64,000 nt of DNA from Marinomonas posidonica IVIA-Po-181 (GTDB taxonomy: Bacteria > Pseudomonadota > Gammaproteobacteria > Pseudomonadales > Marinomonadaceae), in NCBI RefSeq assembly GCF_000214215.1, contig NC_015559.1, positions 2,901,001-2,965,000 on the forward strand, given 5' to 3'. A program made the position numbers and the translations under genes. The notes below the pieces were generated by a model, which searched no databases, was not told the origin of the DNA, and saw only the letters and a list, made by a program, of their open reading frames with translations. This document shows positions 61,486-63,557 of the stretch, piece by piece (within the stretch, counting starts at the first letter, position 1; each line of letters opens with the position of its first letter).

Positions 61486-61694
61486 CTTAGGGAAGATGTG
61501 AACAAGTCCACTGACTACGGAGCTCCTCGGCAACCGCTCCTGCGTTGCCCTACTACACCACATCCTTGTGGTTATGCATTGCTCTAATCCTCTACATCCA
61601 TGTAGGGGTCAGCTTGTGAATAAGTTTCTTTTATTCAAGGCTCGTTTCACCGTTCAATATTGAACATATTGGCAAGAAGCTTAAAAAAGAATAA
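61486..61694. repeat. Structured dispersed repeat, copy 1
   Basis: A 209-bp element whose near-identical second copy lies at 63296-63522 in the same orientation. Shared landmarks in order: CTTA-GGAAG, ACAAGTCCACTG, CTCCTCGGCAACCGCTCCT, hairpin ACCACA-TCCT-TGTGGT (61557-61572), hairpin CCTCTACA-TCCA-TGTAGGGG (61589-61608), and the perfect palindrome GTTCAATATTGAAC (61652-61665). It has no open frame. It resembles a REP/MITE-like non-autonomous element, not one I can name. Confidence 0.85.
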
Positions 61695-61761
61695 GGGGAG
61701 CTTAGACCACGCCCTTCGGGTCTTTCTTAGCACAAGAACGCCAAAACATAAGAGCATAAAA

Positions 61762-61783
61762 AAAGAGCGCTAAAGCGCTCTTT
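61762..61783 (-). terminator. Terminator of the phytase-like gene
   Basis: AAAGAGCGCT / AGCGCTCTTT with a 2-nt loop, followed on the minus strand by a run of T (61756-61764). It lies 28 bp after the gene's stop. Confidence 0.85.
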
Positions 61784-61810
61784 GAAATTCATTCTTTTTC
61801 AAACTCAGTA

Positions 61811-63223
61811 TTACTCAGATAGTAAATCCGTTTTGATAATGTACAACTGATTCGAATCAACGGTCGTGTCATTCAAATATTTTTGCTCAAGCTTACCTTT
61901 CGTTGACCAAGTCGCAAAATCATCGTCATTCAATACCCCTAAATGATGATCATCGATTATCCACAGACCTTCCATTTTATCATGTGGATACGCCACTTCT
62001 TTAACCATGTCGACCACCAATACTTTACTTACAGGTTTAATGCCTTTTTCCGCTAATGCCGCCCAGCCTTGTTGCTGAGCGTATTGCTCTAAGGTCAAGC
62101 CATCAATCAACAAACCGTGACTTCCATCTCGCGTTATCGAACCCGACAAAGCCACACTTGATAAAGGCGTTGCTGTGTTTAAATCAATGCGATAAACCTG
62201 CTTTTGAGCCTTTGGATTGGCTTTTTTAGGGCCGCCTAGCAAGAAACTACCATCCCGCTCAATGACTAAAAATTGACTCTCGGTTAGAGCTGCGATTTCA
62301 GAGTTTGAGTTTTGATTCTTCTCCTGACGATACAAGTATTGCTCTGTCTTACCCGTCTGTAGATTCACCGTCACAATGCGTGTTAGATCGCCCTTTTGAG
62401 CTGCTTTATCAGGGTTCCGCATGGTAGATTGCATAATCCCAACCAGAGTTTGCTCATCTGGGCTGATTGCTAACCCTTCCATGCCTCGGTTGGCACGGCG
62501 ATGCTGGAAGACAGTAGGAAGGTAAAACGTGTTACGTGAATCCGCTTGGAATGCATTGATACGACCAATTTCAACACCACTAGCATCATAATGAACCATA
62601 TGCGGTCCATACTCATCACTGACCCAGAAAGTGCCGTCTTTTAACGCCACCAAACCTTCCCCGTCCAAACCATAATCATCTAGTTTAATCGGATTACTTT
62701 GCCCGTTATAAGCTTTTGAATCGTCCATTAATACTGGCTGACCATTCGCGTGGTAAGGCGTTTCACCTGTGCCGCCGAGGGCCGAGGTATTGGGTAAACC
62801 TGAAATCAATTGACCATCAGGACGCTTCAATAAAATGCTTTCAAGCAGAGTAATTTGACCGCTTTCCGACACCTCAAATAAGCCAATACGAGGAGTGTAA
62901 GAAGCCACAGGGAAAGTTTTTCCTTTACCGTAATCCCCTGTGTAATTAGCATTTGGGCCGCGGTCCGTTAGAGCATAAAACTGATTACGAATGCTTGGGT
63001 GAGCTGTCATGGCCGAGCCAAACCCTCCATTACGAACTTCAAAGGGTTGGCCTGTTTTCCCATCCAGCAGATCTGCTCTTAAAACGTCATAAGGCAAAGA
63101 TGCACCCTGTTTAGGAAAATTTTCTGCAAACTCAATACCTGACGCTGATGAGCTGGAATGACTCATGCAACCAGTTAGAACAAGCGTTGAAATCAAACCA
63201 GCCAACCACACTTTACTTGTCAT
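61811..63223 (-). CDS. Esterase-like/phytase-like family lipoprotein
   Basis: A 470-aa predicted lipoprotein (signal LAGLISTLVLTGC, lipobox LTGC) followed by a Ser-rich linker and a beta-propeller-like domain of the 'esterase-like activity of phytase' family (PF13449). Family-like segments include YALTDRGPNANY, DYGLDGEGLVALKDGTFWVS, SDEYGPHMVHYD, NRGMEGLAISPDEQTL and KMEGLWIIDDHHLGVLNDDDF. Substrates of this family are poorly known, so phytate hydrolysis should not be assumed. AAGGGGCG precedes the ATG. The gene is bracketed by two direct copies of the structured repeat. Confidence 0.85.
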   Translation of the reverse strand: MTSKVWLAGLISTLVLTGCMSHSSSSASGIEFAENFPKQGASLPYDVLRADLLDGKTGQPFEVRNGGFGSAMTAHPSIRNQFYALTDRGPNANYTGDYGKGKTFPVASYTPRIGLFEVSESGQITLLESILLKRPDGQLISGLPNTSALGGTGETPYHANGQPVLMDDSKAYNGQSNPIKLDDYGLDGEGLVALKDGTFWVSDEYGPHMVHYDASGVEIGRINAFQADSRNTFYLPTVFQHRRANRGMEGLAISPDEQTLVGIMQSTMRNPDKAAQKGDLTRIVTVNLQTGKTEQYLYRQEKNQNSNSEIAALTESQFLVIERDGSFLLGGPKKANPKAQKQVYRIDLNTATPLSSVALSGSITRDGSHGLLIDGLTLEQYAQQQGWAALAEKGIKPVSKVLVVDMVKEVAYPHDKMEGLWIIDDHHLGVLNDDDFATWSTKGKLEQKYLNDTTVDSNQLYIIKTDLLSE

Positions 63224-63295
63224 TACGCGCCCCTTTGTTTGTTTTTTAACCGTCCAAACAGCATAAGAGAGCGTGATGACGCTTTCATGACATGA

Positions 63296-63522
63296 CTTAA
63301 GGAAGGTACAAACAAGTCCACTGGCGACGGCAACGAGCTCCTCGGCAACCGCTCCTCGGCAACCGCTCCTACGCTGCCCTATACACCACCTCCTTGTGGT
63401 TATGCGTTGCTCTAATCCCCTACATCCTTGTAGGGGTCAGCGTGTGAATATTTCTTTATTATTCGAGGTGAGTTTCGCCGTTCAATATTGAACATATTGG
63501 CAAGCAGCTTAACAAAGAATAA
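63296..63522. repeat. Structured dispersed repeat, copy 2
   Basis: A 227-bp second copy of the element at 61486-61694, same orientation, 1.81 kb away. It differs mainly by an extra 14-bp unit (GCTCCTCGGCAACC twice in tandem). It keeps the hairpin CCCCTACA-TCCT-TGTAGGGG (63417-63436) and the palindrome GTTCAATATTGAAC (63480-63493). It fills most of the 371-bp gap between the phytase-like gene and isocitrate lyase. Apart from the aceA terminator, the remainder shows no other feature. Confidence 0.85.
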
Positions 63523-63557
63523 AAAAGGGCCTAGCAGGGGAATGACTAGGCCCTTTT
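63523..63557 (-). terminator. Terminator of the isocitrate lyase gene
   Basis: AAAAGGGCCTAG (63523-63534) pairs with CTAGGCCCTTTT (63546-63557) over an 11-nt loop. The minus strand runs on into T. It abuts repeat copy 2 and lies 38 bp after the aceA stop. Confidence 0.88.

Follow-up and report, generated by a model that had tools for sequence, protein, structure and literature searches.

Insertion sequences of the IS5 family prefer YTAR targets, and ISEc68 is an element that we take to belong to this family. The end of ISEc68 has been printed as the 17-bp sequence GGAAGGTGCGAATAAGT (PMC6763765). Two further described systems involve small hairpin-bearing repeats: the REP sequences associated with TnpA-REP, which are short bulged hairpins present in many, mostly intergenic copies, form tandem arrays and show junctions without target duplication (PMC8266576), and the double hairpin elements of fungal mitochondria, which are small, dispersed in intergenic DNA and potentially mobile (PMC2800124). 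Marinomonas posidonica itself has been considered poorer in mobile elements than its congeners on account of having only 6 transposase genes (PMC3577112). No description of the repeats analyzed here, either of the whole MITE family or of the module inside it, was found in the titles, abstracts and passages of the open-licence literature; six literal sequences sought in open-licence main texts matched only the ISEc68 end, literature searches for Marinomonas with MITE and inverted repeat and for Endozoicomonas with palindromic repeats yielded nothing, and the main text of a MITE review mentions neither IS5 nor Marinomonas (PMC10969869).

The window, a stretch of 64,000 nucleotides from the genome of the seagrass bacterium M. 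posidonica IVIA-Po-181T (3,899,940 bases, one contig), contains two repeats on either side of a gene for a phytase-like lipoprotein (Table 1). The two repeats are very probably independently inserted and decayed IS5-type MITEs that carry a double-hairpin module, with the phytase-like gene as a bystander. That they are copies of one another in the same orientation, as an earlier note on this DNA had proposed, is real: 141 nt align without gaps at 88% identity (61554-61694 versus 63382-63522), with further matching blocks to the left, and this likeness is far above chance expectation. The two TCC-loop hairpins, the C-to-T change that preserves a G-T pair and the 14-bp palindrome GTTCAATATTGAAC, perfect in both copies, are likewise present as had been described. 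The perfect palindrome occurs in only 4 of 30 aligned loci (the window pair, L004 and L024), the remaining loci showing looser versions, such as CCAATATCAGTATATTGG, or missing that part. The limits first given to the elements had to be redrawn. Alignment of the copies in this genome with their flanks revealed that the fuller ones are bounded at both ends by the inverted repeat GGAAGGTGCGAAYAAGTC, so that the repeats as first noted comprise only the left and central portions of the element; copy 1 extends further to the right than had been thought, with TTAG on each side, and copy 2 incorporates an additional 14-bp unit. Compared with a fuller copy in which both terminal inverted repeats (TIRs) are present (G000:1512209-1512470), the right TIR missing from copy 1 corresponds to the 22 bases of intact copies between ...GGGTCTTTC and the target, and copy 2 ends directly against the isocitrate lyase terminator. 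Judged by their similarity to other copies in the genome, the two do not form a recent duplicate pair, since the match of copy 1 to the copy at 2425893 (87%, 255 bits) is about as close as its match to copy 2, which is shorter (89%, 222 bits).

Table 1. Features of the two repeats and of the gene between them (window coordinates)
Feature	Position	Strand	Remarks
Target-site duplication TTAG, left of copy 1	61487-61490	+	TTAG again at 61727-61730
Copy 1, IS5-type MITE	61491-61726	+	Left TIR GGAAGATGTGAACAAGTC at 61491-61508; right TIR lost
Double-hairpin block, copy 1	61517-61608	+	Coordinates by eye, comparison with other copies, structure analysis
Outer module, copy 1	61517-61526 plus 61575-61608	+	5' part decayed; coordinates by eye
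Inner module, copy 1	61527-61574	+	Nested in outer module loop; coordinates by eye
Hairpin P2, inner module	61529-61549	+	Bulged pyrimidine, TCCT loop; read from sequence; covariation in related modules
Hairpin P3, inner module	61557-61572	+	TCCT loop; read from sequence; covariation in related modules
Hairpin P3, outer module	61589-61608	+	TCCA loop
14-bp palindrome, copy 1	61652-61665	.	
Target-site duplication TTAG, right of copy 1	61727-61730	+	
Terminator-like hairpin 3' of phytase-like gene	61758-61783	-	Outside element; read from sequence by eye
Phytase-like lipoprotein gene (PF13449), 470 aa	61811-63223	-	Neighbourhood conserved in M. aquiplantarum (L058)
Target TTAA, left of copy 2	63297-63300	+	Empty TTAA site in M. 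aquiplantarum
Copy 2, IS5-type MITE	63301-63522	+	Left TIR GGAAGGTACAAACAAGTC at 63301-63318; right end deleted
Nested double-hairpin block, copy 2	63327-63436	+	One additional 14-bp TCGGCAACCGCTCC unit
14-bp palindrome, copy 2	63480-63493	.	
Terminator-like hairpin 3' of isocitrate lyase gene	63523-63557	-	Abutted by copy 2; also in L058

The two copies belong to a sizeable family. Searched against its own genome, copy 1 returns 35 matches, its own location among them; E is 1e-35 or lower for 12 of these, and because four pairs of matches are pieces of one element the total represents about 31 sites. With up to 3 mismatches allowed, the TIR pattern occurs 114 times in the genome and a reversed control 3 times. 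Pairing of TIRs (at most 5 mismatches in 18) in the stretches fetched from 100 of these 114 places recovers at least 49 elements, with lengths of 48-360 bp; six of them look chance-like or false. Identical 4-bp flanks accompany 25 of the 49 pairs, 20 of them conforming to YTAR (about 0.2 expected by chance), and the other 24 pairs are without identical flanks. Of 45 scored elements (the 49 pairs minus the six chance-like ones, plus the two window copies), 44 lie outside ORFs as delimited by a rough ORF caller. The multi-copy intergenic family with conserved ends anticipated by the earlier note hence exists, and the REP-like reading fits it only by analogy, the whole element being an IS5-type MITE with IS5-group TIRs, a 4-bp YTAR duplication and a short length without a transposase. 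In the Marinomonas genomes compared, a TIR match at 1 mismatch or less is present in 42 of 48, and one genome (G022) reaches 113 such places, the highest count in this sample. A plasmid sequence search gave no match to the whole element. Four elements of M. posidonica (G000:1074409, 2689201, 3186309 and 3190729), of 48-51 bp, are barely more than two head-to-head TIRs; the 4-bp flanks are identical in two of these elements.

Several lines of evidence connect these elements with IS5 transposases. The TIR is identical to the 17-bp ISEc68 IRL in the form printed in PMC6763765, DUF772 transposase matches occur in 37 of 48 Marinomonas genomes, and the two Marinomonas transposases that were scanned both fall into the NCBIfam IS5 family. 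A TIR variant within 4 mismatches is present at 23 of 30 DUF772 transposase loci of the genus, mostly adjoining YTAR; none of these 30 loci holds an IS5 with the exact TIR at both ends, and the best candidate (L184) is 1 base off at one end and 4 at the other. In M. posidonica DUF772 is matched at a single site, a broken IS5 relic (L168, G000:3092837-3093063), which has TTAG on both sides and lies near a flagellin-like gene, and no intact autonomous partner was found in this genome. The TIRs, the YTAR duplications, the match to the ISEc68 end, the IS5 transposases of the genus and the IS5 relic are together the reason for calling the elements IS5-type MITEs. An IS5-group transposase would act on the GGAAGGTGCGAAYAAGTC ends and move non-coding elements of about 50-360 bp, mostly into YTAR; the identity of the transposase that moved the MITEs is one that we infer.

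The TCC-loop hairpins make up a double-hairpin module of about 48 nt (P2 and P3). The module block is missing from 26 of 53 scored elements (the 49 TIR pairs, doubtful ones included, and four one-ended copies); where it is present, it occurs either singly or nested. Three elements of M. posidonica form the clearest series in this respect: the one at 1102001 is module-free, that at 2077020 has a 49-nt module between GGCT and TCAGC, and in that at 1512209 the loop of such a module holds another one, of 48 nt, flanked by GTGCTCC and TGCGTTGC. Once the inner 48 nt are removed, the nested copy agrees with the un-nested copy at 88 of 90 bases, and once the 49 nt are removed, the single-module copy agrees with the module-free copy at 56 of 60. 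The module junctions of this series show no target duplication, and in other Marinomonas elements (L031, L032, L042) the module is located at other points. Step-wise duplication of module halves could be an alternative source of the AABB order.

The earlier note had taken the pair-preserving C-to-T change as a hint that the fold matters, and compensatory stem changes in the module across genera bear this out. All six outer P2 pairs are formed in 56 of 66 distinct modules, recovered with a search pattern that fixes Y at one P2 position and leaves other bases there invisible. Among 32 aligned modules, chosen for having both hairpins in the usual place (L321 and L337 were excluded), 95.4% of cells are paired, against 83.8% after shuffling; 63 cells are changed on both sides, against a shuffled mean of 19.8 (sd 5.8, with 0 of 500 shuffles reaching 63); and the covariation score is 0.386 against 0.164, kinship among the aligned modules inflating some of these fold measures. 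The number of pairs changed on both sides gives a modest signal (6 against 4.2 shuffled, reached by 11 of 500 shuffles), and further pair types are no better than shuffles (17 against 16.6, 295 of 500). When the alignment is slid by 1-3 columns, at most 43.9% of cells are paired and at most 12 are changed on both sides. RNAalifold, unaided, recovers the same two hairpins, one pair shorter. The module loops and inner GC pairs are nearly fixed and the P3 stem is variable. G-T and A-C wobbles, tried as a guide to the folded strand, number 11 and 9, respectively, with the pattern-fixed position excluded, a near balance that singles out neither strand. A possible outer stem around the module was also considered; given its weak signal (permutation p 0.010, 34 flanks), it is not claimed that the module always stands at the apex of a larger stem.

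The distribution of the module extends well beyond Marinomonas. The exact 16-mer CTCCTGCRTTGCYCTA is found in 27 of 390 genomes of an order-level sample (14 of 142 genera) and in 35 of 369 genomes of a class-level sample (29 of 272 genera), the M. posidonica genome being included in both, and the reversed 16-mer is found in no genome of either. About 2 chance matches are estimated per 369 genomes, and multi-copy genomes are thus the solid part of this distribution. Up to 146 module copies are present in a single genome (G226), where the module also forms head-to-tail arrays with a 47-bp period (G226:C1:4941004-4941254 and others), with up to six units among the places listed. With a 101-base module region (L333) as the query, plasmid sequences gave 8 records, six of them Pseudoalteromonas replicons. 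In IMG/VR, 15 stretches contain the 16-mer, and 6 of these 15 (L338, L339, L341, L342, L344 and L345) appear by eye to be real modules with P2 arms, the rest being chance-like; L339 and L342 look alike. On an IncR plasmid (L388, NZ_CP133280.1), positions 1501-1537 hold a 37-nt module stretch, at 97%, inside an annotated BREX pglX gene.

Many of these distant modules sit within inverted repeats of their own. Outside Marinomonas, inverted repeats with at most 2 mismatches in 16 flank the module at 26 of 52 sites, and controls placed 900 bases away are flanked in this manner in 5 of 100 cases; with at most 1 mismatch the figures are 15 of 52 against 0 of 100; the 52 sites are those scored among 55 candidate loci, several of which share a genome or family and are therefore not independent. 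Nine of the 15 best bracketed sites represent one family (f8), and the brackets at two loci (L334, L335) resemble tRNA T-arms, not transposon ends. The other half of the module sites outside Marinomonas are without surrounding inverted repeats. Of 49 module sites outside Marinomonas, bracketed or not, 5 lie inside ORFs of at least 150 aa. The carrier ends include AGCAGCCTGTCGGACTTAAG, AGGAGCCTGACCGAGAATAG, TAAGTACTCAACCATACGAAATC, TAGTCCGCATATCTCACCG and AAGCTCTGAAYAAG, among others, and the AGCAGCCTGTCGGACTTAAG and AGGAGCCTGACCGAGAATAG ends are perhaps related to each other. At least four dissimilar kinds of end, the Marinomonas type included, thus surround one small structured unit. In one locus (L329, from G495) the module lies in an element with another IS5-like end, of GGAAGCTCTGAAYAAGYC type, from a different family of the class.

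The arrangement of two direct copies about 1.81 kb apart, bracketing this gene alone, had led the earlier note to view the gene as a possible removable cassette, and the patchy presence of the gene across the genus would agree with this. We regard it as very unlikely that the copies recombine, deleting 1.8 kb with the phytase-like gene, or work as a composite transposon. The closest relatives of the gene are found in Marinomonas and some Psychromonas. In M. aquiplantarum (L058), the nearest relative found, isocitrate lyase, the phytase-like gene and a histidine kinase follow one another as in the window, with protein identities of 93% (the query being the partial isocitrate lyase gene inside the window), 89% and 86%, respectively, yet the site of copy 2 is without an element and presents TTAA at the matching place. 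This synteny without copy 2 implies that, between M. posidonica and M. aquiplantarum, the gene has neither moved nor been lost together with the copies. Close to where copy 1 would lie, M. aquiplantarum carries a TIR element some 63 bp long, which may be an orthologue reduced in length or have inserted separately, and the insertion of copy 1 may on this account predate the split of the two species. Among 20 relatives' loci in Marinomonas and Psychromonas (L058-L076 and L118), a TIR-like match falls within the 4-kb flanks in three (L058, L063, L075) and no element pair brackets the phytase-like gene in any; in 7 of the 20 the gene follows isocitrate lyase at a distance of no more than 4 kb downstream; and no relative among the gene-bearing loci compared shows the single hybrid copy that loss of the gene would leave. 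Furthermore, the right TIR is absent from both window copies, and the two are unlike in content. The patchy distribution (a match in 27 of 48 genus genomes, about 24 of them convincing, M. posidonica included) means that the gene is gained or lost over longer times, with no tie to these repeats seen. Its position with respect to its two neighbours, isocitrate lyase and histidine kinase, varies among species: it stands between them in L058 and the window and after the kinase in L062, L064 and L065, and in L070 and L071 the kinase is also upstream of it.

The hairpins might alternatively belong to a REP/BIME family spread by TnpA-REP (RAYT), with the TIR part incidental. P2 is indeed an imperfect palindrome with a bulge, preceded on the complement by TAG, often GTAG (TAG stands in every row of a set selected with a pattern containing it); the 47-bp tandem arrays of G226 and the compared module junctions without target duplication would also fit, and M. 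posidonica has a RAYT-size gene (L259). On the other hand, the first base of GTAG varies (CTAC, CTAG, CTAA and CTAT on the module strand), TIRs and a YTAR duplication are foreign to REPs, and the 231-aa RAYT-size HUH transposase gene of M. posidonica (G000:965358-965684) is bracketed by a different, inverted repeat, GGGGTCAGAGTAAAATTAA, unlike the module. Y1_Tnp matches occur in 36 of 40 genomes searched (12 + 28), 38 of which are module-bearing (G224 and G241 are without the module). Of the Y1_Tnp loci returned, 60 were inspected, 59 of them from module-bearing genomes; 58 of these 59 are without a nearby module, the single exception being a 1.7-kb contig end (L274) with a module within about 0.75 kb; no HUH-transposase link to the module, and no TnpA-REP gene flanked by the same repeat, appeared among the loci inspected. 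A module in G246 that is 165 bp from a Y1_Tnp gene sits in an inverted-repeat element, and none of three sibling copies of that gene has a module. A REP origin is hence improbable, and we think equally little of a role for the hairpins at the RNA level, be it in termination, processing or stabilisation of transcripts. The compensatory fold changes would agree with such a role, as would the folding of the plus strand of copy 1, which is better than that of shuffles (z -3.4), but for the minus strand, on which the neighbouring genes of the window are read, folding does not exceed that of shuffles (z -1.1), and the orientation of modules relative to flanking co-directional genes (same/opposite) is 7/18 in M. 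posidonica, 14/17 in other genomes and 9/14 in G226. An Rfam search likewise gave only sub-threshold matches, none at the gathering score; the top one in the window, DUF3800-I (32.4 bits, cut-off 44.2), falls on the terminator of the isocitrate lyase gene and shares 8 nt with the right-hand end of copy 2.

The reading of the two repeats as decayed IS5-type MITEs therefore draws on what is observed of their ends, target duplications, copy number, decayed IS5 and empty copy 2 site, and the account of the module on its conserved fold, its nesting and its presence inside inverted-repeat elements with dissimilar ends. The module is more widespread than the MITE family, riding in MITE-like elements with dissimilar ends as well as in its own copies and being amplified with them. 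It may also move by itself, most likely as folded single-stranded DNA joining at hairpin tips, as the absence of target duplication in the series compared, the nesting in its own loop, the palindromic carriers and the lack of a sense-strand bias suggest. Against single-strand joining stand the lack of a linked transposase among the loci inspected and the weak signal of an outer stem. We put forward only tentatively, as a possibility with the odds somewhat against it, the fuller proposal that the module of about 48 nt is a mobile element itself, far below the size of any IS, and that as a folded single strand moved by some enzyme it enters hairpin tips, its own included, and hitch-hikes in MITEs of different IS families across the Gammaproteobacteria.

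With about 43 two-ended MITE copies (49 minus 6 doubtful ones), in addition to one-ended ones, set against 6 transposase genes, the M. posidonica genome illustrates that transposase counts miss most small mobile DNA. In a wider sense, a structured 48-nt unit with compensatory stems, in MITE-like carriers with dissimilar ends, raises the question of what recognizes the module, and candidate proteins can now be assayed for this on a short synthetic oligonucleotide.

Compared with IS5-family MITEs with ISEc68/IS5 ends, the M. posidonica elements have the same TIR, 4-bp YTAR duplications, non-coding length and IS5 transposases in the genus, and they differ in that no intact partner was found in the genome and in a modular interior with a double-hairpin passenger. 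The module shares with REP sequences, as these are presented in PMC8266576, all the traits listed at the outset, and departs from them in lacking a strict GTAG, in having no linked TnpA-REP among the loci inspected, in having two different hairpins per unit and in being often found in inverted-repeat elements; the REPMb of Marinomonas MWYL1 is given there with a TTTA loop, whereas the module loop is TCCN (NGGA on the complement). The double hairpin elements of fungal mitochondria, in the terms in which PMC2800124 portrays them, resemble the module in size, dispersal and potential mobility, yet they occur in unrelated hosts, and the module is set apart from them by conserved loops on stems that vary in a compensatory manner.
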